From Alphaproteobacteria bacterium (GTDB lineage Bacteria > Pseudomonadota > Alphaproteobacteria > MPNO01 > UBA2964), in assembly GCA_012103315.1 (NCBI GenBank), contig WLWZ01000002.1, forward strand, positions 135,381 through 199,380: DNA of 64,000 nucleotides. The letters are read 5' to 3'. Position 1 is the stretch's first letter. Every line of letters starts with the position of its first letter. A program made the translations under genes and the position numbers. Positions 29,651 through 63,195 of the stretch are shown one piece after another. Under the pieces are notes generated by a model, which saw only the letters and a program-made list of their open reading frames with translations, had not been told where the DNA came from and searched no databases.

Positions 29651-32020
29651 CTATTCCGCAGCGGCGGCACCTGCATCAAGAATATTGAGAATGTCTTCAG
29701 CACGCACCGGCGTGCTGTTCAGCTCAGCGCCAAAAGGTTTGAGCGCATCACACACCGCATTGGCAATTACCACCGGCGGCGCAATCGCTCCGCCTTCACC
29801 AAGCCCTTTAAACCCAAATGAATTTCTCGGTGACGGTGTTTCACTATGGATGACATTGATCGGCGGCACGTCAGAGGCCGTCGGTAGCAAATAATCCATA
29901 AAGCTGCCCGTCATCAGCTGTCCATGTTCATCGTAGGATAGCTCTTCAAACAGCCCGCCACCGATACCCTGTACCAACCCACCCTTAACTTGACCGTCAG
30001 CAATGGCTGGATTGATCAACGTGCCGGCATCATGAACTTCGACATAGTTTTCTATTTTAACGACGCCAGTCTGAGTATCAATCTCGACAATCGCCGCATT
30101 GGCAGCATAGGCCCAGGTCACGGTTGGCGGTTCGTAATAGGCCGTTCCTTCGAGACCCGCTTCGATACCTTCGGGACGTTGATGTATCCAGCCCGGCAGT
30201 GCCGCGCGCGCAACTTCTTTCAACGTCATCGACATTTCGGGTACGCCTTTGACACCAACAGAGCCATCGCGCAGTTCGAGATCGGACTCTGACGCCTCAA
30301 GAACGTTGGCGGCGATGGCAAAGACTTTCTCTTTCACTTTATCGCTCGACTCCTGAATGGCGCCGGATGCCGTCACCGCACTACGGCTAGCGATGGTGCC
30401 ATAGCCCATCGTTACATGCGATGTGTCCGCGAGCGTCACGACAACGTCGTCGATATCGACACCCCAGATATCGGCAGCAACCTGGGCGAACGCTGTCTCA
30501 TGACCCTGCCCCTGCGGGCAGGCACCTGTAGCCACCATCACCTTGCCGGAAGAATCGATCTTGACGGTTGCGCCTTCAAACGGGCCGATGCCGGTTCCTT
30601 CGACATAGCAACCAAGACCAAGACCGAGATATCGGCCTTCGGCAAGCGCCTTTTTCTGCCGTTTACGAAATGCATCTAGTCCGCCGACACCGTCCAGCGC
30701 CTTACGCAGTGCCTCGGGATAATCGCCGCTATCATATTCGATCATGACACCATCACGATACGGTAGCCCGACGGCATAGGGCATCTGTTCCGGCTGGATC
30801 ATATTACGAAACCGTACTTCGGCGGGATCAAGCTCAAGTTCATTGGCAATGAGATCAATCGAGCGTTCCATCGCAAAGGCAACTTCGGGCCGCCCCGCCC
30901 CACGGTAGGGCGCGTTAGGCGTCCGATTGGTCATCATGACCTTACAGTCTGACTCATAGTGCGGGATGTCATACGGCCCCATGAAATGCGCGATCGAGTT
31001 TCCGGCAATCGCTGCGCCAACTGGCGAGTACGCCCCGGAATCGACCAGAAAATAATTCTTCACAACGCTGATTTTGCCGTCGTCATCAAACCCGACCTCA
31101 ATATCAAACAGATTGTCCCGCGAATGGGCAGCGTTCAGGAGATGCTCGTGGCGATCTTCCAACCACTTAACCGGTCGACCAAGACGCTTGGCCAAATAGG
31201 CGACCAAGATATCTTCCGGATAAACATGACCCTTACCACCAAAGCCACCACCGACATCAGGCGCAACAACCCGCACGCGTTCTTCGGGCATATCAAGGGC
31301 ATTCGCCACTTCGCGGCGGACCCAATGGACCACCTGAGTCGAAGACCAAACCGTAATGCTATCGGTTCGGGAGTCATATTCCGCGACCACGCCACGGCAT
31401 TCCATCGGCATCGCCGCATAACGGTGATGAAAATAGCGTCGTTTCAATCGGCGCGGTGCCGTCTCCAGAGCCGTCTCGCCATCGCCCTTCTTGGCATGGA
31501 GCGTCGCCGCGATATTGCCCGGTAGATGGTCATGCACCAGCGCATCTGCATTCACTGCCGCTTCAGCATTGGCCACCGGCGGGAGGGTTTCGAAATCGCC
31601 TTCGATCAGTTCTGCCGCATCTTCAGCAATATAGCGATCGCTTGCCACGACCAGCGCATAGGGTTCACCGACATAGCGCAACTTATCGTGTGGCACCAAC
31701 GTCTGATCGGGGATTTCGATACGAGGATCCATGCCGTCACGCCAGGTTTTCGGTGCGGTCACCTGCATGCCGCTAATGGGCGGCAACACGTCCTTCAAAT
31801 CTGCGCCCGCCAACGCCAACGCGACCCCATCAACGCCGCGCGCGGCATCCAGATCAATCGCGTTAATGCGAGCATGGGCCAACTGGCTACGAACAATAGC
31901 GACATGGAGCATGCCATCGAGTTTCATGTCGCCAACAAAAGTTCCTGCCCCTTTGAGAAGCCGGTTATCTTCACGACGAACAACCGAGCGACCAATATAA
32001 GACGGCATCGTATCAGCCAT
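29651..32020 (-). CDS. Molybdenum hydroxylase large subunit (xanthine dehydrogenase/CoxL family)
   Basis: This 789-residue catalytic subunit binds molybdopterin cytosine dinucleotide. It shows APDVGGGFGGKG, the PYRGAGRPE loop (form II rather than the AYxCSFR loop of true CO dehydrogenase), VEGTGIGPFEGA, GACPQGQGHETAF and the C-terminal GEGG with the catalytic Glu. Such enzymes hydroxylate aldehydes or N-heterocycles with water as oxygen source. It forms one operon with the 2Fe-2S and FAD subunits encoded immediately upstream on the same strand, giving a complete L-S-M complex. The SDR and TauD neighbours suggest a shared catabolic pathway. Confidence 0.94.
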   Translation of the reverse strand: MADTMPSYIGRSVVRREDNRLLKGAGTFVGDMKLDGMLHVAIVRSQLAHARINAIDLDAARGVDGVALALAGADLKDVLPPISGMQVTAPKTWRDGMDPRIEIPDQTLVPHDKLRYVGEPYALVVASDRYIAEDAAELIEGDFETLPPVANAEAAVNADALVHDHLPGNIAATLHAKKGDGETALETAPRRLKRRYFHHRYAAMPMECRGVVAEYDSRTDSITVWSSTQVVHWVRREVANALDMPEERVRVVAPDVGGGFGGKGHVYPEDILVAYLAKRLGRPVKWLEDRHEHLLNAAHSRDNLFDIEVGFDDDGKISVVKNYFLVDSGAYSPVGAAIAGNSIAHFMGPYDIPHYESDCKVMMTNRTPNAPYRGAGRPEVAFAMERSIDLIANELELDPAEVRFRNMIQPEQMPYAVGLPYRDGVMIEYDSGDYPEALRKALDGVGGLDAFRKRQKKALAEGRYLGLGLGCYVEGTGIGPFEGATVKIDSSGKVMVATGACPQGQGHETAFAQVAADIWGVDIDDVVVTLADTSHVTMGYGTIASRSAVTASGAIQESSDKVKEKVFAIAANVLEASESDLELRDGSVGVKGVPEMSMTLKEVARAALPGWIHQRPEGIEAGLEGTAYYEPPTVTWAYAANAAIVEIDTQTGVVKIENYVEVHDAGTLINPAIADGQVKGGLVQGIGGGLFEELSYDEHGQLMTGSFMDYLLPTASDVPPINVIHSETPSPRNSFGFKGLGEGGAIAPPVVIANAVCDALKPFGAELNSTPVRAEDILNILDAGAAAAE

Positions 32021-32519
32021 TGTCGCTCTCCTGCCTTACCGGTTTGCCATGCACCTGTTCGGCATAGGCTGTAACGGCTTTTATAATTCCTTCGTATCCC
32101 GTGCAGCGACACAAGGCTGCTGACATCCCGACTTTGATATCCTCTGTGGTAAGAGAGCTGTTGCTTTCAACCAGATCGATAGCGGTCATCAACATCCCTG
32201 GTGTGCAATAGCCACATTGCAAGGCACGGTGCTCTGAAAATAATTTTTGCAACGGATGGAGATCGTCACCATCCGCCAGCCCTTCAACCGTCTTTATGTC
32301 AGCACCCTCTGCCTGAACAGCGAACATCAAACACGACCGCGCTGCCACGCCATCGACGATGATTGTACAGGCACCGCAAACTCCGTGTTCGCAACCAACG
32401 TGGGTGCCGGTCTTGCCAAGAACATCCCGCAAGAAATCGGCAAGCAACATCCGGGGGGCAGCATCGCCGGTCAAAACCTCTCCATTGATAGAGACTGAAA
32501 TCGTTCGCGACGCGGTCAT
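32013..32519 (-). CDS. Molybdenum hydroxylase small subunit, two [2Fe-2S] clusters
   Basis: This 168-residue protein has the plant-type ferredoxin cluster ligands C43, C48, C51 and C63 (CEHGVCGACT) and the second cluster ligands C102, C105, C137 and C139 (CGYCTPGM and LCRCTGY). It carries electrons from the molybdenum site to FAD. Its 3' end overlaps the large-subunit start by 8 bp and its start overlaps the medium-subunit stop by 4 bp, showing tight translational coupling in the order M-S-L. Length is normal. Confidence 0.96.
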   Translation of the reverse strand: MTASRTISVSINGEVLTGDAAPRMLLADFLRDVLGKTGTHVGCEHGVCGACTIIVDGVAARSCLMFAVQAEGADIKTVEGLADGDDLHPLQKLFSEHRALQCGYCTPGMLMTAIDLVESNSSLTTEDIKVGMSAALCRCTGYEGIIKAVTAYAEQVHGKPVRQESDNG

Positions 32520-33388
32520 GACGTCACCGCCGCCCGCTGCACTACTTTTTCGAGCGCCCGGGTCGTCATGACGCCAACAAGACGCCGCCGATAGTCTGCA
32601 CTGGCATGTAAATCCGACATTGGATCGACTGACGCCGCTGCAGCAGCAGACGCTGCTTTAACTGCCTCTACCCCAACGCCATCTTGCAGGATAATCTCCT
32701 CGGCCGTCGTCAATCGTGATGCCGTTGATCCAGCGCCACAGACGGCGAGGCAAACGTCAGCCGGTGCATTATTGGCAAAGGTAATTTGCGCGGCAACACC
32801 CGCCAACGCAAAGTCACCATGGCGCCGCGCAATTTCAACAAACGCTGAACTACTACCTGGCGGCGCTTTCGGTACGATGATTTCAGTCAGAAGTTCATCG
32901 GGCTCAAGCGCTGTTGTCAGGACATCCTCAAAAAAGGCCGCCGCCTTGATTCGACGTTCACCGCGAACAGATTGCGTCACCAACTCAATCTCAAGGGCTA
33001 ACGCGACGGCGGGATATTCCGCTGCTGGGTCGGCATTGGCCAGACTGCCGCCAATTGTGCCGCGGCTGCGAATAGGAAGGTGGGCAATCTGTGTTGTCGC
33101 CTCCTGCAACAACGGTGCCTGATCCCGCACCAACTCATTTTCTTCAATAGTGCGTTCGCGCGTCATGGCACCGATTGCTATGTGATCACCGCCATCCTTT
33201 ATAAAAGCGAGATCAGAGATGCGGTTGAGATCAATTAAAATCTCAGGGCGGCTAAGACGAAAGTTCAGCAGCGGCACCAGACTCTGGCCACCCGCAAGAG
33301 GCCGAGCAGCATCACCATGCTCCGAAAGCAACGCCAACGCCTCGATGAGCGATGACGGAGACAGGATATCCAACGGCGGTGGTTTCAC
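32516..33388 (-). CDS. Molybdenum hydroxylase medium subunit, FAD-binding
   Basis: This 290-residue protein has the FAD-binding ARPLAGGQSLVPLLNFRL near residue 32 and GTIGGSLANADPAAEYPA near residue 110, both standard for CoxM-type subunits. It passes electrons from the iron-sulfur clusters to an acceptor such as a quinone or NAD. It is first in the M-S-L operon. The 181 bp upstream, shared with the divergent DMT gene, should hold the operon promoter. Confidence 0.95.
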   Translation of the reverse strand: MKPPPLDILSPSSLIEALALLSEHGDAARPLAGGQSLVPLLNFRLSRPEILIDLNRISDLAFIKDGGDHIAIGAMTRERTIEENELVRDQAPLLQEATTQIAHLPIRSRGTIGGSLANADPAAEYPAVALALEIELVTQSVRGERRIKAAAFFEDVLTTALEPDELLTEIIVPKAPPGSSSAFVEIARRHGDFALAGVAAQITFANNAPADVCLAVCGAGSTASRLTTAEEIILQDGVGVEAVKAASAAAAASVDPMSDLHASADYRRRLVGVMTTRALEKVVQRAAVTS

Positions 33389-53321: not shown

Positions 53322-54050
53322 CTATTTTCGGGACGACAGAACGACTGACAGCATATTGCCTGCGAGATCATTTGCCGTTGGGTAGTCCGCTTTTTTAGCA
53401 CTCTTAAGATAGGTCTTGCAGGTCGCGACCGAAGCCCGCTCGTATCCTGCGAGCTTCTCCAGCAGTCCTTCCACCGAAGCATCTAATTCCGCAAGCGGGA
53501 CCACTTCACTGACCAACCCGATGGAAACGGCGCGATCCACATCAATCGTGTCCGTCGAGTACACCATGCCCAGCAGCGACTTTGGCGGAATGCGGTCCAA
53601 ATGGGCCAACATCGCCAATGTCGGAGGCAAGTTCGCGCGCATCTCCGGCATGGCAAAGCGAGCATTGTCGGCAGCAATGGTGACATCTGAAATCGCCGTT
53701 ATGCCGCAACCCAAGCCATTTGCGAGCCCTTGAACCCCGGTGATCACAGGGATTTCTGCATCGCGAATGGCGGAGTAAACACCAAGGATTGGTTCAATCA
53801 GCGCTTCACGCATTTCCAGTGCAGTCGTCGGCTTACCTTCCGGCGCGCCGGCAGGATCACGACCCTTACAGAAATCATCTCCCGCACCGCGAACCACCAT
53901 CGCGTTGATCGATGGGTCAGCACCCGCTTCGCGAACATCTTTAGCGATATCCCTCAACATCGCGAGCGTCAGAAGATTGCCCATATCAGGCCGTTCAAAT
54001 GTCAGCCGTGCAATCGCACCATCCTGGGTTACTGAATATCCGTCACTCAT
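53322..54050 (-). CDS. Enoyl-CoA hydratase/isomerase family protein
   Basis: This 242-residue crotonase-fold protein has GAGDDFCKGRDPAG near residue 50, VQGLANGLGCGITAISDVTIA and FAMPEMRANLPPTLAML. In the second region the two usual Glu residues are not both clear, so it may be an isomerase, hydrolase or decarboxylase. It ends the six-gene UbiD operon. It resembles the hydratase at 2511-3206 in length and in the loop after the oxyanion hole, hinting that the two CoA pathways are related. Confidence 0.9.
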   Translation of the reverse strand: MSDGYSVTQDGAIARLTFERPDMGNLLTLAMLRDIAKDVREAGADPSINAMVVRGAGDDFCKGRDPAGAPEGKPTTALEMREALIEPILGVYSAIRDAEIPVITGVQGLANGLGCGITAISDVTIAADNARFAMPEMRANLPPTLAMLAHLDRIPPKSLLGMVYSTDTIDVDRAVSIGLVSEVVPLAELDASVEGLLEKLAGYERASVATCKTYLKSAKKADYPTANDLAGNMLSVVLSSRK

Positions 54051-54075
54051 TCTCTGTCCCGCCTCTTAAAGATTT

Positions 54076-55320
54076 CTATTTGGATTTTTTGTCACCGGCT
54101 TCGAGGATGATGCCATCCTCCCGGTATTGATCGAACTCAGCGTCACTTAAGCCCAACACGCTGGTGAACACTTTACGGCTGTGTTGTCCAAGCGCTGGTG
54201 GATAGCGGTGCGGCACTTCATCTTCGCCCATGAATTTGATCGGGTTGCCTGCCACTCGGGCACGTTTTTCACCACCACCATCCAGATCAAGCACCATCTG
54301 ACGATGTTCAACTTGAGGATCAGACAGCGCATCGGCCAGCGTATTTACCTCGCCAACCGGAACACCGGCTTTGAGCAAAGACGGCACCCAATCCTTAGCC
54401 TCTTTCGCGGCGAAAGCTTCTTCAAGAAGTGGCCAGAGTTCTTCGCGGTTTTGATGACGGTGCTCGTTGGTCAGAAACCGGTCGTCTTCTTTCAACGCTT
54501 CCAGCCCAAGCACATCGCACAGCCCCTGCCACATGCGTTCTGTATTGGCGCAGACCACCAGCTCGGTGTCATTGGCACCGGCGAATGACCGATAGGTTGG
54601 AATGGATTCATGGCCACGCCCCTGACGTCCGGGAACCTCATCAGAATGCAAATAATACGCTGCCTGATAGGTCAGCAGTGCCACCTGGCAATCGAGCATG
54701 GAGATATCGACGAACTTGCCTTTGCCTGTACGACGACGTTCTTCCAACGCAGCCAAGGAACCGACCGTTGCATACATGCCAGCCGTGAGATCACCGATTG
54801 GCATCCCCGCGCGAACTGCGGAACGACCAACCTCCCCGGTAAGACTCATACCGCCCGACATTGCCTGAACAATCATGTCATAAGCAGGGCGCTCACGATA
54901 AGGGCCAGTTTGGCCAAAGCCACTTATGGAAGCCCAGATCAATCCCGGATTACGCGACGACAAATCGTCATAGGTCAGCCCCAGCCGATCCAAGACACCA
55001 GGACGAAAGTTTTCCATCACGACGTCGCATTTCTCAGCCAACTGTTTGACCAGCGCCAACCCTTCCGGCGCCTTCATATCGATAGCAACCGCTTCCTTGT
55101 TACGATTGATTGACAGGTAATAGCAGCTATCGTCACCAACAAAATGCGGCGGCAGCGTGCGTGACCAGTCACCCGACGGCGCTTCCAGCTTGATCACTTC
55201 TGCGCCGAGATCAGCAAAGATTTGTGTGCTGAACGGACCCGCCAGAAACTGCGTCAGATCCAGTACTTTGATCTCGTTTAGCGGTCCGGGCCGAACCTCT
55301 TCTTGTGTATTCTCTGTCAT
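54076..55320 (-). CDS. Class III CoA-transferase (CaiB/BaiF family)
   Basis: This 414-residue protein belongs to the formyl-CoA:oxalate CoA-transferase family. The N-terminus has the VLDLTQFLAGPFSTQIFADLGAEVIKLE signature; the catalytic Asp is D177 in GMPIGDLTAGMY. It would move CoA from a donor thioester to a free acid, activating the substrate without ATP. It lies between the hydratase and the molybdenum hydroxylase, so the acid activated is probably an intermediate of the UbiD operon. The acid cannot be named. Confidence 0.95.
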   Translation of the reverse strand: MTENTQEEVRPGPLNEIKVLDLTQFLAGPFSTQIFADLGAEVIKLEAPSGDWSRTLPPHFVGDDSCYYLSINRNKEAVAIDMKAPEGLALVKQLAEKCDVVMENFRPGVLDRLGLTYDDLSSRNPGLIWASISGFGQTGPYRERPAYDMIVQAMSGGMSLTGEVGRSAVRAGMPIGDLTAGMYATVGSLAALEERRRTGKGKFVDISMLDCQVALLTYQAAYYLHSDEVPGRQGRGHESIPTYRSFAGANDTELVVCANTERMWQGLCDVLGLEALKEDDRFLTNEHRHQNREELWPLLEEAFAAKEAKDWVPSLLKAGVPVGEVNTLADALSDPQVEHRQMVLDLDGGGEKRARVAGNPIKFMGEDEVPHRYPPALGQHSRKVFTSVLGLSDAEFDQYREDGIILEAGDKKSK

Positions 55321-55328
55321 TCTCTTGA

Positions 55329-57674
55329 TTATTCTGCAGCTTGCGGTGATCGTCCCGCCCGCACCACATCAACGATCCGCGATGGTGTGACCGGCACATT
55401 CATCAAATCGGCGCCGAACGGTTTAAGCGCATTCTCTACTGCTGCAATGATAGATGCCGCCGCTGGTATAGTTCCGCCCTCGCCTGCGCCCTTAACGCCG
55501 AGTGGATTCAACGGCGAAGGTGATTCAACGTGGATTGTTTCAGCATCCAGGACGTCCCCAGCACCAGGGATCAGATATTCGGCAAAGGTCGTGGTAAGAG
55601 GATTGGCGTTCTCGTCAAAAAATTGTTCTTCAAAAAGTGCATTGCCAATGCCGTGCGCCAAGCCACCCTGCACCTGACCGTCAACGATCATCGGATTAAT
55701 CAGATTTCCAGAATCGTGGGCAATGACATAGCGCAATATTTCAACATGACCGGTTTCAATATCAACCTCGACCTCGGCAATGTGGGTGCCGTTGCAATAC
55801 GCCGATTGCGATGGTGAGAAATAATGTGTCGCCTCAAGACCCGGCTCAAAACCCGGTGGCATCGCGAAACCGGGCGACCCGGCAACGGCATGCGCAATCT
55901 CACCCAAAGTCTTACTCATCTCGGGGACGCCTCGAACAAACGCTTTACCGTCCTCAAGCTCGATATCTTCTTCAGCCGCTTCCAGCATATAAGCCGCAAT
56001 CTTGATAGCCTTCTCGCGAACATCGAGCGATGCCATGTGTACGGAGGGTCCGGCATTGGCGGCAATGCGGCTGGCAAAGGTGCCTACGCCATGCGCGATC
56101 TTTGTCGTGTCGGCGAGATGCACTTCAACATCGGCAATATCGACGCCAAATTTTTCAGCGCAAAGCTGCGCCATCGTTGTGCGATGGCCTTGCCCTTGCG
56201 GCGCCGCACCAGTCATCAAGAAAATCTTGCCCGATGGTGCTACACGTACAGTTGCGCCTTCAAACGGACCAAGCCCCGTGCCTTCGACGTAATTGCCAAT
56301 GCCGATACCGATATAACGACCGTCGGCGAGCGCCGCCTTCTGGCGCTCTGCAAAACCGGGATAGTCAATTTTCTCCAGCGCTTCTGACTGGCAGCGCGGA
56401 TAATCACCGCTGTCATAAATCACCGGTTTACCATCCCGAAAGACCAACCCGACCTTATAGGGCATTTCCTCAGCCGGGATCAGATTTCGTGCGCGAAGGT
56501 CCGCAGGATCAACACCAATCTTTTCAGCCGCTTTATCCATCAGCCGTTCCATCGCGAACACTGCCTGGGGTCGGCCCGCGCCGCGCACCGGCGTCACCTG
56601 AACTTTATTCGTCAGCGCGACAATTGTTTCTAATTTAAAGCTCGGCAGCACATACGGACCCGGCACTGTCGTTGATGCAATCAGTGGCGTCACGATACCC
56701 CACGGCACATAGGCACCGGTGTCATGGACCATAGTACCGCGAACACCAAGCAGTTTGCCATCATCGTCAAATGCCGCATCCATATCCCAATATTGATCAC
56801 GTTCCTGGCTGGCCGATAGGAAATGTTCGCGCCGATCCTCAATCCATTTGATAGGCCGGTCGAGCTTGCGAGCGAGGAATGGAATAACCGCTTCCTCAGC
56901 ATAGAACATCGCCTTTGGCCCAAAACCACCACCGACATCCGGCGCGATCACATCAATCTCGTTCTCATTCCAGTCGAGTACGCCGATAATATTGCGCTTT
57001 ACCTGATGCGGCGCCTGAGTAGCTGACCACAACATGGTCCGGCCTTCGTCTTTATCGTACAGAGCAACCGCGCCACGCCCCTCGAGCGAATGTCCGCCGC
57101 CGCGATGATGTCGGATCGAAACCGAAACAGTATGGGCAGCAGAGGCAAACGCCGTATCCGCATCGCCATATTCATTCACAAAGCGCGCCGAGACGTTATC
57201 CTTCGCACCAACATGGCAGAGTGGTGCACCGGTCTGCACGGCGTCATAGGCATCGGATGCGGCAGGCAGAATCTGCCAATCGATCTCGACCATGGCTGCA
57301 GCATCTTCAGCGATATAGCGCGTGTCTGCGACCACACAAGCCACGGCTTCGCCAGCAAAATGCACCTCATCCCGCGCGAGCAGATAGGGCATCATTGGCT
57401 GAGTAATCGCCGGGTTGGGCAAAAGCAACAGAAGTTTGTTTTCCTGAATATCCTTGGGGAAATCCGCCAGCGTAAAAACGCCGTGCACACCATCCATCGC
57501 TTCGGCTGCTGCTGAATCGATCTTGGTAAAACGGGCATGTGGATGCGGGCTACGGATAAACACCGCCTGCAGCGCGCCCTCTACCCGGATGTCATCGGTG
57601 TACTGACCCTTGCCGGTCAGCAGTTCGGGATCTTCTAATCGCTTAACCGCAGCACCGAACAGCTTTGCTCCCAT
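55329..57674 (-). CDS. Orphan molybdenum hydroxylase large subunit (xanthine dehydrogenase/CoxL family)
   Basis: This 781-residue subunit has APDVGGGFGPKA, the TPVRGAGRPQ loop (form II type), VEGTGLGPFEGA, GAAPQGQGHRTTM and the C-terminal GAGEGGTIP with the catalytic Glu. It is a clear relative of the subunit at 29651-32020 and keeps all molybdopterin-binding blocks. No small iron-sulfur or medium FAD subunit is encoded beside it; the only such genes in view are at 32013-33388. It sits in the UbiD operon and is expected to hydroxylate a ring or CoA-bound intermediate. Confidence 0.94.
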   Translation of the reverse strand: MGAKLFGAAVKRLEDPELLTGKGQYTDDIRVEGALQAVFIRSPHPHARFTKIDSAAAEAMDGVHGVFTLADFPKDIQENKLLLLLPNPAITQPMMPYLLARDEVHFAGEAVACVVADTRYIAEDAAAMVEIDWQILPAASDAYDAVQTGAPLCHVGAKDNVSARFVNEYGDADTAFASAAHTVSVSIRHHRGGGHSLEGRGAVALYDKDEGRTMLWSATQAPHQVKRNIIGVLDWNENEIDVIAPDVGGGFGPKAMFYAEEAVIPFLARKLDRPIKWIEDRREHFLSASQERDQYWDMDAAFDDDGKLLGVRGTMVHDTGAYVPWGIVTPLIASTTVPGPYVLPSFKLETIVALTNKVQVTPVRGAGRPQAVFAMERLMDKAAEKIGVDPADLRARNLIPAEEMPYKVGLVFRDGKPVIYDSGDYPRCQSEALEKIDYPGFAERQKAALADGRYIGIGIGNYVEGTGLGPFEGATVRVAPSGKIFLMTGAAPQGQGHRTTMAQLCAEKFGVDIADVEVHLADTTKIAHGVGTFASRIAANAGPSVHMASLDVREKAIKIAAYMLEAAEEDIELEDGKAFVRGVPEMSKTLGEIAHAVAGSPGFAMPPGFEPGLEATHYFSPSQSAYCNGTHIAEVEVDIETGHVEILRYVIAHDSGNLINPMIVDGQVQGGLAHGIGNALFEEQFFDENANPLTTTFAEYLIPGAGDVLDAETIHVESPSPLNPLGVKGAGEGGTIPAAASIIAAVENALKPFGADLMNVPVTPSRIVDVVRAGRSPQAAE

Positions 57675-57695
57675 GATACTTTCTTTCTCTAGCCT

Positions 57696-58835
57696 TCAGC
57701 GTGCGAACAGATGAATCGAACAAACACCATGATCAAAACCCGACACACCGCCACCGGTACAATGAGTCAGGCCGACCTTGGCATCTTCAACTTGGCGCTG
57801 ACCGCACTGGCCGCGCAGCTGGCGCACAATTTCGACAATTTGCGCAACGCCGGTTGAGCCAATCGGGTGGCCTTTCGACAACAACCCGCCGCTGGGATTG
57901 ACCGGAATTTTCCCACCCACCGAAGTTTCACCATCGGCGAGCAACTTCGCCGCATCTCCCTTGGCGCAAAAACCCAGCGCTTCGTAATACAGTAATTCTG
58001 CAATAGCGAAGGCGTCATGAACTTCAGCAAGGTCAACGTCTTCCGGCCCGATACCAGCTTCTTCATAAAGCTGCTTAGCACCCCGCAACGTAATCTTCGG
58101 CGACGTCATGTCGCGATAGCCGGTCATATACTTGCCGGAGTTAATCTCCGATCCAATCACTCGAATCGGCTTCGCAGAATATTGTTTGGCTTTCTCAGCA
58201 GAGCAGATCACGACCGCCGCCGCGCCATCCCCTGACGGGCAGCAATGAAATAGTTTCAACGGATCAGCGACCGGCCGTGACGCCAGGACTTCTTCACGCG
58301 TCACTTCTTTGCGGAACTGCGCATCTTCATTCCACACACCGTGCTTGCGTGCTTTGACGGAGACATCAGCAATGTCGTTCTCGGTCAGACCATATTCATG
58401 CATGTAGCGCCGCGCCCGCATGGCATAAAGTGCCGGCATAACGAGGCCGTGCGAGACTTCCCAGTCTTCTTTCTCTAACGGAAGTGTTCCGCCACCGAAC
58501 TTGGTCAGCTTCTCAACACCAATCACCAGCACGGCGTCATAGATACCGGCGGCAACCGTAATCCAGGCTTCGCGAAACGCAGTCGAGCTCGATGAACAGG
58601 CATTCTCAATATTGATGATTGGCAAACCAGTGATGCCAAGTTTCTTTAAAATGCGCTGTCCGGCCATCATGCCACCGAGTGCCGTCCCGCAATAGGTCGC
58701 TTCGATTTCGGTTTTTTTGATACCGGCATCTTCCACCGCCTGTTTCACTGCAGGCCATGCGATATCAGCGAGAGTCTTGTCCTGATATTTGCCAAACGGC
58801 ACCATGCCAGCACCAACGATTGCAACATCACGCAT
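57696..58835 (-). CDS. Thiolase-family protein (SCP-x type)
   Basis: This 379-residue thiolase has the nucleophile C80 in NACSSSSTAF, VHDAF with the second-loop residues, GGLLSKGHPIGSTG with the active-site His, and a late HCTGGG. This organisation is of the SCP2/acetyl-CoA acetyltransferase type. Its stop is 22 bp before the hydroxylase start and its start overlaps the DUF35 gene by one base. Such thiolases commonly form a complex with DUF35 proteins, and some work as aldol lyases rather than thiolytic enzymes. The reaction is uncertain. Confidence 0.94.
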   Translation of the reverse strand: MRDVAIVGAGMVPFGKYQDKTLADIAWPAVKQAVEDAGIKKTEIEATYCGTALGGMMAGQRILKKLGITGLPIINIENACSSSSTAFREAWITVAAGIYDAVLVIGVEKLTKFGGGTLPLEKEDWEVSHGLVMPALYAMRARRYMHEYGLTENDIADVSVKARKHGVWNEDAQFRKEVTREEVLASRPVADPLKLFHCCPSGDGAAAVVICSAEKAKQYSAKPIRVIGSEINSGKYMTGYRDMTSPKITLRGAKQLYEEAGIGPEDVDLAEVHDAFAIAELLYYEALGFCAKGDAAKLLADGETSVGGKIPVNPSGGLLSKGHPIGSTGVAQIVEIVRQLRGQCGQRQVEDAKVGLTHCTGGGVSGFDHGVCSIHLFAR

Positions 58836-59260
58836 TAACTGTCTCCCTTCTGAACAGGGGTAAAGGCAAAACTCTCAAAAGGCGCACCTGATTCATCTGA
58901 TCCGAGAGTAGCAATCTGGGCTTTCACCGACATTTCCATTTCCAGAGTGTCGGGGTCGGCATCAACGATATGAGCGAACACCCGCACGTCTTCAGGCAAA
59001 TCGACATAGGCCGCGATGAAAGGCAGGTTCCAGCCCTTTGGCGCGGCATGCACCACCGACCAGGAATACAGCTTTCCCTCGGCGCTCAACTTAATCGGCG
59101 ATAGGTTTTCAGACATGCATTCCGGGCAAACGTCGCTCGGCGGAAACACGTTCTTTTGGCAATCACCGCATTCTGATCCCACCAGCCGAACCGCACCATC
59201 GCTGTCCGTGGTGACAGCGTCACCAGCGAGGTTCAACGCTTCCTGTAATTCTTCACTCAT
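58835..59260 (-). CDS. DUF35/OB-fold zinc-ribbon protein
   Basis: This 141-residue protein has a rubredoxin-like zinc ribbon with C31, C34, C45 and C48, then a C-terminal OB-fold (KLYSWSVVHAAPKGWNLPFIAAYVDL). DUF35 proteins bind CoA thioesters and partner with thiolases or aldolases, as ChsH2 does in steroid side-chain degradation. The one-base overlap with the thiolase gene supports such a complex here. It is fed by the UbiD gene 9 bp upstream. Confidence 0.92.
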   Translation of the reverse strand: MSEELQEALNLAGDAVTTDSDGAVRLVGSECGDCQKNVFPPSDVCPECMSENLSPIKLSAEGKLYSWSVVHAAPKGWNLPFIAAYVDLPEDVRVFAHIVDADPDTLEMEMSVKAQIATLGSDESGAPFESFAFTPVQKGDS

Positions 59261-59269
59261 ACCTAATCT

Positions 59270-60922
59270 CTACTCATTCTCCGGGTTACGCGGAACATCG
59301 CGGATTGAGGTGTTTGGTGCAACATCATTTCGCCGCAACTGGGCACTGCGCCTGCCATTTTCCATATAGCGTCCATCCACCGCGCGCTGTGCCATTTCTT
59401 CCCATTCTTCCGACCAATCACCCAGCGAATAGCCATGCCAGGGGCTTTCCGGTTTGAGCGGCGGCAAGTCGAGAATTTCCCATAACTCCTTGGCGCCTTC
59501 CATAAACTCCTTGGTCGGCAGGGCAATTGGCGGCATATCCGATTTAAGGGTCGCATCAATTAACATCGTGCCATCGAACCCATCGCCCCGTTCCAGCGCC
59601 GGACCATGCCCTCGATCACGATATTTAAGGATTTCAACATCCAAAGCCGGGTTGGCGCGATAGGCCAAAGCCCAAAACACCGCGTCACCCTGTTCGGGGT
59701 CAATATCTTCATTTACCGCGATGACATACTTGCCACAGGCAGAGTCAAAATTCGCTGTGCCATAAAGCGCCCGCCAAATCTCTGTCGTCGGAACGCCGCG
59801 CTCAAACACCAAAAAGGCCAAGCGCCGAATGTTCGTAAGCGGTTCATGTAGCGAAACATGTTTGAGACCCTTGATACCAAGATGATCCGTCAAATGGTTA
59901 AGGAATTTGGGCTCCATCGCGACGCGCTTGATGACGCTCGATTCCGACGGTGTGACCTGCGAGATGATCGACGCCATGATGGCATCCTTACGACGCGTAA
60001 TCGCGGTGACTTCAAAGATAAAATTATATTCCTCAAGATTGATGTGCCCGTGGCTTTCGCCAAATGGGGCTTCGGGCTCCAGCATCTCAGTATCAACCAG
60101 CCCTTCGATGACAATCTCGGCATCCGCTGGCACCATCAGATCGACGGTCTTGGCTTTAGCGACGCGGATTGGTGCACCGACCAGCGCCCCGGCGACCGCG
60201 ATTTCATCGACACCTTCGCGGATCTTCTGCGGGCTGACATAGGCCAAGGCCGGTGGGCAACCAACCATAATCGCCATCGGCATCTTTTCACCGCGGGCTT
60301 TGTACTTGTCCCAATGTGCATGTCCGCCCTGGCGCAGATTGACGAACATCTTGAGGCCAATGCGGTCAGGCGCTTTGATACCACCGCGATAGGTGCCCAT
60401 ATTCTGCACACCGGTATCCGGGTCACAGGAGATACAGCTGGTCGCCGTCAGGTAAGGCGCAACATCAAACCCCGGCGTCGAAATTGGTACTGGCAAGGCA
60501 TCGAGGCCCTTACCTTCGCCATCCAGATCAGCACCGGTGAGAACAACCTCATGACACGGCGCATCCTGTACCTCAACCGGTGGCACAGGCGCGGCCAAGG
60601 CGTTCTTCCAGTGATCGCCAATATCGGAAACCGGCACGCCCATGCCGACGCCGTAAATCTCCGGCGTTGTCGCCAGCGCACCAACCACCAGCGGGATATC
60701 ATATTTATTACCGCGACTGTCTGTGACGTTATTAAACAAGAAGGCTTTGCGTTCTGATTCAGGAATACCGCCGCGAAACTGCCAACGCACGAGGGGCTTC
60801 AGCTCTGTGTCTTTATTTACCGGCGCATCGATTTCATGAAGCAGCCCGGATTCGCGCAGAGTAGCAATATGGTCGTGGAGATCTGGATATCCCCGCCCGC
60901 CATATTGTTTGTCGTCAGCCAT
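59270..60922 (-). CDS. UbiD-family decarboxylase
   Basis: This protein of about 550 residues starts at an ATG at 60922 with GAGGA 5 bases upstream; the open frame extends to 60949. It has NMGTYRG near residue 174 and EAPFGE near residue 284, the elements that bind prenylated FMN and metal in UbiD and ferulate decarboxylase. It reversibly decarboxylates an aromatic or unsaturated acid. It needs prFMN made by a UbiX partner, none of which is in the window. It is first in the six-gene operon and its position argues that decarboxylation or carboxylation is the first step. Confidence 0.95.
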   Translation of the reverse strand: MADDKQYGGRGYPDLHDHIATLRESGLLHEIDAPVNKDTELKPLVRWQFRGGIPESERKAFLFNNVTDSRGNKYDIPLVVGALATTPEIYGVGMGVPVSDIGDHWKNALAAPVPPVEVQDAPCHEVVLTGADLDGEGKGLDALPVPISTPGFDVAPYLTATSCISCDPDTGVQNMGTYRGGIKAPDRIGLKMFVNLRQGGHAHWDKYKARGEKMPMAIMVGCPPALAYVSPQKIREGVDEIAVAGALVGAPIRVAKAKTVDLMVPADAEIVIEGLVDTEMLEPEAPFGESHGHINLEEYNFIFEVTAITRRKDAIMASIISQVTPSESSVIKRVAMEPKFLNHLTDHLGIKGLKHVSLHEPLTNIRRLAFLVFERGVPTTEIWRALYGTANFDSACGKYVIAVNEDIDPEQGDAVFWALAYRANPALDVEILKYRDRGHGPALERGDGFDGTMLIDATLKSDMPPIALPTKEFMEGAKELWEILDLPPLKPESPWHGYSLGDWSEEWEEMAQRAVDGRYMENGRRSAQLRRNDVAPNTSIRDVPRNPENE

Positions 60923-61003
60923 GTCTTCCTCATCCTGTCTGCAGCGCAATAAACCACGAAGGAAAACAAGGGATCAACCACCGGGGACGCTGTTATTTTT
61001 AAA

Positions 61004-61909
61004 TTACGACTTACTGGCCGCTGCCCGTTTCACAATCCGCTCACGGTAGGAGATGATGGTTGTCGCCATCACAATCGTAAACGCCCCTGCCCATGTCCAG
61101 ATATCAGGGATTTCCGAGAAAGCGATATAGCCAAAAAGTGTCGCCCAGATCATCCGCGTAAACACAATCGGCTCGGCAAAGCTTAAATCGGCTATCGCAT
61201 AAGCCTTGGCGGTAAACAGATGACCGATACTCCCCAACGCACCAATGATCACGAGGCCTAGCAACTGCTCTATTGTCGGCCACTGCCAATAGAACAAGGC
61301 AACGACGAGCGTAATTGGTGTCATCAGAAATTGCACATAAGCAGCGATCGTCGCCGGGTCTTCCGTCTTGGTCAGGCTCTTGGCAAAGAGTTTTGAGATC
61401 GCCGCCAAGGCCGTAGCAGCGATTGCCAGTAGCGCACCGATATTCACCGCCTCAAACCCGGGACGAATAACCATCAACGCGCCGAGCGCCCCAAGGATTA
61501 GCGCGGTCCAGCGCCAGATACGAACCCTTTCACCAAAAGCCACCATCGCCCCCAGCGTCACAAAAAGAGGTCCGGTGAGATTAAGAGCTGTCGCATCTGC
61601 CAGCGGAATAAGTGACAGCGCCATGAACCAACACAGCATCGACATTGAGTTGATACAGGCACGGATTGAATGGAAGCCCAAACGCTTGGTCATGAACATT
61701 CCAACACCACCCCGCATCAACAGTGGCACTAACACTAGAAAACCAAACAGATTGCGAAAAAACGCAATGACGAAGGGATGCAGATCGGCAGAAAGCAGCC
61801 GCACCGTGCCATGCATTGAGGCAAATAATGCCCCTGCGAGGATCATAAAGGCCGTCGCAAGAACCGCCGGGGAGGCGGCAGCAGAGGAACCTCCGGCAGA
61901 TGCGGTCAT
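61004..61909 (-). CDS. EamA/DMT-family exporter 6
   Basis: This 301-residue transporter has ten helices in two EamA repeats, with SLIPLADATALNLTGPLFVTLGAMVAFGE closing the first and YAIADLSFAEPIVFTRMIWATLFGYIAF in the second. The N-terminus is Ala/Ser-rich. It lies just upstream of the UbiD operon in the same direction, 81 bp from its start, and could export a pathway intermediate, but no evidence ties them. The gap to the divergent OYE gene is 173 bp. Confidence 0.92.
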   Translation of the reverse strand: MTASAGGSSAAASPAVLATAFMILAGALFASMHGTVRLLSADLHPFVIAFFRNLFGFLVLVPLLMRGGVGMFMTKRLGFHSIRACINSMSMLCWFMALSLIPLADATALNLTGPLFVTLGAMVAFGERVRIWRWTALILGALGALMVIRPGFEAVNIGALLAIAATALAAISKLFAKSLTKTEDPATIAAYVQFLMTPITLVVALFYWQWPTIEQLLGLVIIGALGSIGHLFTAKAYAIADLSFAEPIVFTRMIWATLFGYIAFSEIPDIWTWAGAFTIVMATTIISYRERIVKRAAASKS

Positions 61910-62082: not shown

Positions 62083-63195
62083 ATGTCGGACGCCCAAACC
62101 CCACCCATGTTTACGCCATTCACCCTACGAGAAATGACCGTCAGCAATCGCGTCGTGATGTCGCCTATGTGTATGTATTCCGCTGATGATCTCGACGGCA
62201 CGCCGACAGACTTTCACGTCGTACATTTAGGCAGTCGCGCGATGGGCGGCACGGGGCTGGTTATGACCGAAATGACCCAGGTCTCCAGAGAAGCCCGTAT
62301 CTCCCCCGGCGATGCCGGCATGTATGAAGATCGCCATATGGAAGCCTGGAAGAAGGTCGTCGATTTTGTCCATACCCGCTCTGAGGCCAAAATCGGCATG
62401 CAGATCGGCCATGCGGGACGAAAAGCCTGTGAGCCCATCGCCTGGAAGCGCAACACGCCACTGACCGAAGACGAGAAATGGGAGATCGTCGCGCCAAGCG
62501 CCATCAAGTTTGGACCCGATAGTGAAATGCCGCGCGAAATGAACCAGAGTGATATCGCCAAAGTCATTGATGATTTTGTCTCTGCCGCCAAGCGCGCCGA
62601 TGACGCAGGTTTCGATATTATCGAGCTGCATGCCGGGCATGGTTATTTGCTGTCATCCTTTATGTCGCCGCTATCGAACCAACGGACAGACGCCTATGGC
62701 GGATCACTGGAAAACCGCATGAAACTTCCGCTCGAAGTGTTCCACGCGGTACGCGCTGTCTGGCCAGACGAGAAACCGATGTCGGCCAGAATCTCAGCCA
62801 TCGATTGGAACGATGACGGTAACCAGATCGAAGATGCTGTTGAGGTCGCCAAGATGTTCAAGGCTGCTGGGCTCGATATCATCGATGTCTCAAGCGGTAA
62901 CGTCACCAGCGAACGCCGCCCCGTCACGCCTGGTCTGTTCCAGACACCGTTCAGCGAACAAATCCGCCGTGATGCTGATATGCCGACCATGACGGTTGGT
63001 AATCTGGCGGTACCCGAACAGATCAATGGCGTCATCGCCGAAGGCCGCGCCGATCTCTGCTGTGTCGGTAAGGGGCATCTATATGATCCCTACTTCGTAC
63101 GTCATGCAGCGCGAGAGCTTGGATATGAGCTGAAATGGCCTAATCAGTACCCAGCAGCCGGAGCGTTTAATCCCAACCCAGAAATCATGAGATAA
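62083..63195 (+). CDS. Old yellow enzyme family NADH:flavin oxidoreductase 1
   Basis: This 370-residue FMN-dependent ene-reductase of the YqjM-like branch has the N-terminal SPMCMYS with regulatory C30, GMQIGHAGRK near the active site, and HGYLLSSFMSPLSNQRTD with the FMN and substrate loop. The C-terminus holds TVGNLAVPEQINGVIAEGRADLCCVGKGHLYDP. OYEs reduce activated C=C bonds, often in aromatic or xenobiotic metabolism. A homologue follows 4 bases later. Divergent from exporter 6. Confidence 0.95.
   Translation: MSDAQTPPMFTPFTLREMTVSNRVVMSPMCMYSADDLDGTPTDFHVVHLGSRAMGGTGLVMTEMTQVSREARISPGDAGMYEDRHMEAWKKVVDFVHTRSEAKIGMQIGHAGRKACEPIAWKRNTPLTEDEKWEIVAPSAIKFGPDSEMPREMNQSDIAKVIDDFVSAAKRADDAGFDIIELHAGHGYLLSSFMSPLSNQRTDAYGGSLENRMKLPLEVFHAVRAVWPDEKPMSARISAIDWNDDGNQIEDAVEVAKMFKAAGLDIIDVSSGNVTSERRPVTPGLFQTPFSEQIRRDADMPTMTVGNLAVPEQINGVIAEGRADLCCVGKGHLYDPYFVRHAARELGYELKWPNQYPAAGAFNPNPEIMR

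Follow-up and report, generated by a model that had tools for sequence, protein, structure and literature searches.

How a molybdenum (Mo) hydroxylase large subunit encoded apart from its partner subunits could work, and what pathway it would serve, are the questions raised by a six-gene locus at positions 53,322 to 60,922 of a 64,000-nucleotide stretch of an alphaproteobacterial genome (contig WLWZ01000002.1, positions 135,381 to 199,380; G000:C14:135381-199380 in our numbering). The genome amounts to 4.1 Mb in 25 contigs, and the whole stretch is called the window below. We think it probable, though well short of certain, that the six genes serve to break down a (hetero)aromatic or similar unsaturated cyclic carboxylic acid in a coenzyme A (CoA)-dependent way; a decarboxylation step would have been recruited to the pathway, and its hydroxylase would be assembled in trans. 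Throughout, the large (Mo), flavin adenine dinucleotide (FAD) and iron-sulfur (2Fe-2S) subunits of such hydroxylases are abbreviated L, M and S. The six open reading frames listed here are intact and all on the minus strand, of the families and in the order that a sequence-only reading of the window had claimed, and every Pfam match lies above its curated cut-off:

59270..60922, minus strand, UbiD-family decarboxylase dependent on prenylated flavin mononucleotide (prFMN) (PF01977, 175.6 bits; alternative TTG start at 60949)
58835..59260, minus strand, DUF35 protein, a ChsH2/BbsA-type zinc-ribbon, OB-fold partner of thiolase (PF01796, PF12172; BbsA 7pxp_A, 60 bits)
57696..58835, minus strand, thiolase of the BbsB/SCP2 type (BbsB 7pxp_C, 325 bits)
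55329..57674, minus strand, Mo-hydroxylase L (PF20256, PF02738, PF01315), with no M or S adjoining
54076..55320, minus strand, class III (CaiB/BaiF) CoA-transferase (PF02515, 416 bits; predicted catalytic D177 by motif position)
53322..54050, minus strand, crotonase-fold protein of the enoyl-CoA hydratase (ECH) family (PF00378, 105 bits)

From UbiD to crotonase the intergenic gaps are 9, -1, 21, 8 and 25 bp. Gene-order conservation, proposed earlier as a check, was borne out within the window's family: the complete UbiD-DUF35-thiolase-L-CoA-transferase-crotonase order was found at L116-L120, L122 and L123, and partial copies, each ended by a contig end, at L121, L124, L130, L101 and L103. The operon proteins are 51-98% identical across this one GTDB family of uncultured Alphaproteobacteria, whose habitat appears from isolate names to be marine. 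Among named records, the operon occurs in metagenome-assembled genomes titled Alphaproteobacteria UBA2964, Rhodospirillaceae or uncultured Alphaproteobacteria, one of which is a complete chromosome (OX638326.1). Because further genomes of the family repeat the order in full, it is not a chance arrangement. The flanks differ among relatives (at L119 and L120, for instance, 0.6-1.2 kb separate the crotonase gene from the next conserved gene), and the six genes remain tightly packed. From this spacing, and its conservation under changing flanks, the six genes probably form one transcriptional unit.

The window L is nearest to the large subunit of quinoline 2-oxidoreductase (1t3q, 490 bits), and its E732 aligns with the catalytic glutamate and is invariant in orthologues. 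As a member of the xanthine oxidase family it thus has the L domains and the catalytic residue; it lacks the M and S genes encoded together with L. The sequence-only reading had correctly named the large subunit, and the absence of FAD and iron-sulfur genes had gone unremarked. Neither M nor S was found in any window-family operon copy whose thiolase-L stretch was covered. Form I CO dehydrogenase has the active-site motif AYxCSFR (PMC13240472); this identity was rejected, since the window L has PVRGAGR at 362 and the form I motif occurs in none of the L genes.

The missing subunits are found in sister families of the order. There, the thiolase orthologue (72-78% identity) lies in a DUF35-thiolase-M-S-L operon encoding a complete trimeric hydroxylase, which is followed by CoA-transferase and crotonase genes in families f2 and f4. 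In f3 neither of these two genes was present within the stretch examined, and both accordingly occur in three of four families, counting the window's. UbiD was absent from the sister-family operon stretches (4-20 kb examined) and stands within the operon in the window's family only. Comparison thus shows the conserved core across the order to be a DUF35-thiolase pair with a complete M-S-L hydroxylase. Reading direction from the pattern over families, the window's family appears to have gained UbiD and to have lost M-S from the operon. Outside the order, thiolase relatives have at most 56% identity and other gene contexts, and rokubacterial relatives of the L (41-46% identity) come without the other five operon genes. 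Another proteobacterium has, in a distant stretch of 10 kb, relatives of thiolase, SDR (short-chain dehydrogenase/reductase), crotonase, CoA-transferase, S, M and L on one strand (L175:8197-18367; 24-49% identity).

Gene counts for UbiD, L and S were obtained by whole-genome profile searches, and contexts from the stretches around UbiD and L genes; multi-genome L counts that stopped at 22 per genome were left out of account. The window genome has 37 UbiD-domain genes and 40 L genes (MoCoBD_2 matches, two split hits joined), which makes some adjacency likely, and a UbiD gene lies near an L gene at about six of its loci. One might therefore regard the six genes as mere neighbours in a paralogue-rich genome that belong to no single pathway. 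That is highly improbable, given that order, strand and tight spacing are kept across the family despite the changing flanks and that the order-wide core is retained. Among the other loci, C23:97483-103178 again has UbiD, L and crotonase, accompanied by a gene of the glyoxalase/dioxygenase fold, and at C2:589606-595908 a UbiD gene is divergent to a crotonase-L-S-M set. Over C23:97483-103790 (L061), UbiD, L, glyoxalase/dioxygenase-fold, crotonase and glutathione S-transferase-like genes share one strand and are preceded by divergent CoA-transferase genes.

M-S genes of the operon type could be traced outside the operon. In the L tree, the window-family and sister-operon L proteins group together (support 90/89), and the window genome's remaining L paralogues lie outside this group. 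At C19:151244-152652 the window genome carries an M-S pair that adjoins a paralogous L. The S of this pair shares 74-80% identity with the sister-operon S, against 60% for the genome's next best S, and its M shares 60-64% with the sister-operon M, against 44% for the next best M. In a joined S+M tree this pair groups with the sister-operon pairs (99/98). The same M-S-L set occurs in G001, G002, G003 and G008; the operon-type pair of G009 adjoins an L whose match is to another paralogue. The operon-type M-S pair is intact but L-less in G011 and G012, where it ends against a convergent gene whose N-terminus suggests a sigma factor of the RpoH type; a profile search based on the genome's L proteins gave no trace of an L beside the pair in either genome. 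L-less M-S genes that stay intact call for a partner encoded elsewhere, and the operon L would match them by descent; the window hydroxylase is thus most likely put together in trans from the operon L and the unlinked M-S pair.

Unlinked L genes are common in this lineage. Compared with its 40 L genes, the window genome has 13 S genes. Of the 39 full-length L genes, 27 lack an adjoining M-S, and 19 of these 27 form a clade without any M-S-linked member. The complete chromosome of the same genus (G002) has 41 L and 14 S genes: 13 of the L genes are linked and 28 are not, and one S stands apart from any L. The 19-gene clade suggests that some L proteins may need no dedicated partners, and the window L could similarly function without M-S, catalysing a redox-neutral reaction or handing its electrons to some other acceptor. 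We consider this unlikely: the window L belongs to a mixed group outside that clade, its sister-family orthologues have M-S in their operon, and the operon-type M-S is kept intact without an L in G011 and G012. Besides the C19:151244-152652 pair, a lone S-M pair (C19:69776-71117) was found within C19:68989-76092 (L047), together with coxG, coxD, coxE, XdhC-type (F) and MobA-type genes. This type of cassette is also L-less in G002, G003, G007, G011, G014, G019 and G025; an L separates S from M in G009, G010, G013 and G016. Trans assembly may extend beyond the window operon: at somewhat less than an even chance, the Mo-hydroxylases of the lineage are modular, with a few M-S pairs, L-less ones included, shared in trans by dozens of L proteins. 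New substrates would then be added by duplication of one L gene, and the window operon would be a case of M-S leaving the operon. The window itself holds a second, complete Mo-hydroxylase set at 29651-33388 on the minus strand (L 29651-32020, S 32013-32519, M 32516-33388).

What reactions might the operon proteins catalyse? The thiolase has C80, the HDAF motif (H273), H323 and C359, all invariant in nine orthologues. Scores of the thiolase and DUF35 proteins fall far under the Bbs equivalog cut-offs (364.9 bits versus 750, and 79.5 versus 250), and by sequence the pair is homologous, not equivalent, to BbsA/BbsB. The CoA-transferase has its best matches among succinate-dependent enzymes (succinate-hydroxymethylglutarate CoA-transferase 9br6, 299 bits). 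Hydratases of the crotonase fold carry two catalytic glutamates. In the window protein E136 is kept and G116 stands in place of the second, 20 residues earlier, an arrangement invariant in orthologues. With only one of the two glutamates kept, a hydratase role is doubtful, and the likelier prediction is a reaction of the isomerase, hydrolase or lyase kind. Structure predictions for crotonase and UbiD, from shallow alignments, had mean pLDDT (predicted local distance difference test) values of 51.8 and 33.6, respectively.

These similarities could be taken as a hint for a bbs-like beta-oxidation module in which oxidation of an aliphatic side chain falls to the Mo enzyme in place of the acyl-CoA dehydrogenase. 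BbsA and BbsB are the closest relatives of the window DUF35 and thiolase, the CoA-transferase matches include benzylsuccinate CoA-transferase, and an SDR gene lies just upstream in several sister operons. However, the shortfall against the equivalog cut-offs and the crotonase's missing glutamate both speak against such a module. Enzymes of the Mo-hydroxylase family mostly hydroxylate sp2 carbons or aldehydes, a preference that also disfavours it. No acyl-CoA dehydrogenase (BbsG) was found among the six genes or their annotated neighbours. We judge a bbs-like role improbable.

In the window UbiD, R179, E284 and E289 align with the catalytic Arg and Glu residues of the family and are invariant in orthologues. 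With its UbiD domain, the Arg-Glu-Glu residues and a UbiX-sized gene in the genome, the protein has the features expected of a UbiD enzyme. That no UbiX lies in the window agrees with the earlier account; a single UbiX-sized Flavoprotein gene stands elsewhere, at C24:139609, versus the 37 UbiD-domain genes, several of which are in tandem (C4, C8, C9) and seven of which have no match to a simple catalytic-Glu motif pattern. The operon UbiD proteins form a single group in the UbiD tree (93/99), in which rows G009, G015 and G020, apparently in the wrong reading frame, were ignored. Viral contigs scanned with UbiD yielded no relative. In the complete chromosome G002 (L118:6753-8402) UbiD is about four residues shorter, because its frame is closed by a TAA a few codons ahead of the normal stop.

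The closest solved relative of the window UbiD is HmfF (6h6x, 144 bits), which raises the prospect of a variant hmf furan pathway, in which UbiD would act on furan-2,5-dicarboxylate and, after CoA thioester formation, C5 hydroxylation by the Mo enzyme and a hydrolase step would lead to 2-oxoglutarate. The hmf scheme likewise combines a UbiD-type decarboxylase, a CoA thioester and a Mo-dependent dehydrogenase (PMC6678421). However, HmfF H297 is reported to be key to furan specificity (PMC7976604), and the window UbiD has a Ser aligned at this position, although a two-residue gap nearby leaves the exact column uncertain. Further, the CoA synthetase HmfD is not in the cluster, which has a class III CoA-transferase instead; hmf does not need a thiolase or DUF35 protein; and the sister operons occur without UbiD. 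The furan variant is therefore very unlikely, and furan-2,5-dicarboxylate as the substrate was set aside as disfavoured, the specificity histidine of HmfF not being conserved.

We return to CoA-dependent catabolism of a cyclic carboxylic acid, the reading that we favour. UbiD would take the ring carboxylate off in a prFMN-dependent reaction, and the class III CoA-transferase would put CoA, probably from succinyl-CoA, on the remaining carboxylate. The Mo-hydroxylase would then introduce a water-derived oxygen into the ring, the crotonase would isomerise the ring product or open it, and the DUF35-thiolase pair would split the resulting 3-oxoacyl-CoA. Both the substrate and the order of these steps are matters of inference. 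More speculatively, and as chemistry on paper only, a substrate of the furan-acetic-acid type would account for the 3-oxoacyl-CoA of the thiolase: from the CoA ester of furan-2-acetic acid, hydroxylation at C5 followed by ring opening would lead to 3-oxoadipyl-CoA. What stood of the aromatic or heterocyclic acid pathway suggested by the sequence-only reading is a conserved operon whose enzymes fit CoA-dependent catabolism. What did not stand so well is hydration, made doubtful by G116, and the place of UbiD, a probable later addition in one family only. The view that no described pathway has this gene combination agrees with our searches: no characterised operon with the same six-gene set was found in the literature searched (open-licence PubMed Central papers only).

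Several observations weigh against the interpretation given here. Promoter and terminator scans of the locus came out at chance level and were uninformative. L genes without an adjacent S also occur in other Alphaproteobacteria, in milder form (L:S 4:3, 8:5, 16:8 and ~34:16). The operon-type M-S pair of the window genome sits beside another L, and its partnership with the window L is one we infer. If the interpretation is right, the substrate range of the Mo-hydroxylase family can widen by one added gene, and many 'orphan' coxL-like genes of the ocean would be working enzymes whose other subunits are encoded elsewhere. The locus offers a concrete operon and partner pair for the study of ring-compound breakdown in dissolved organic matter.

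Two neighbouring genes upstream of UbiD deserve mention:

61004..61909, minus strand, EamA-family transporter (PF00892), possible first gene of the transcript
62083..63195, plus strand, Old Yellow Enzyme-family oxidoreductase (PF00724), a conserved divergent neighbour

From the EamA gene to UbiD the distance is 54 or 81 bp, according to which start codon UbiD uses, and EamA may come first in the operon. It adjoins UbiD at L116, L117, L119, L120, L123 and L130; at L118 the EamA-UbiD distance is ~1.5 kb, and at L122 no EamA gene is directly upstream of UbiD. The Old Yellow Enzyme-family protein is similar to the reductase half of salicylyl-CoA 5-hydroxylase/oxidoreductase and counts as an unproven member of the pathway. 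Paralogue groups in ~1.07 Mb from the window genome include 25 TauD-like dioxygenases, 22 SDR proteins and 19 EamA-like transporters.

Among known systems, hmfABCDE/hmfFG of Cupriavidus basilensis HMF14 resembles the window operon in its UbiD-type decarboxylase, CoA thioester and Mo-dependent hydroxylation of a five-membered heteroaromatic acyl-CoA. In contrast to hmf, the window operon has a CoA-transferase replacing the synthetase, an extra DUF35-thiolase pair, no linked M-S and no conserved furan-specificity histidine. With the bbs operon it shares the BbsA/BbsB-type DUF35-thiolase pair, a class III CoA-transferase and a crotonase; it differs in having no acyl-CoA dehydrogenase or SDR, one CoA-transferase gene rather than two, and an added Mo-hydroxylase and UbiD. 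The L belongs with quinoline 2-oxidoreductase and the form II CoxL-type Mo-hydroxylases by its family, catalytic Glu, RGAGR-type loop and absence of the form I CO dehydrogenase motif, but unlike theirs is not encoded with M and S. At the genome level, SAR202 and sponge symbionts, likewise uncultured marine bacteria, have expansions of many CoxL-type paralogues (in SAR202 also of CaiB), mostly with substrates not known (PMC5395668, PMC8941161); in the sponge-symbiont survey this applies to over half of the CoxL-type proteins (PMC8941161). The texts of these two papers make no mention of UbiD, which is also expanded in the window genome, and, unlike in those accounts, the separation of M-S from L in the window lineage has been traced phylogenetically.

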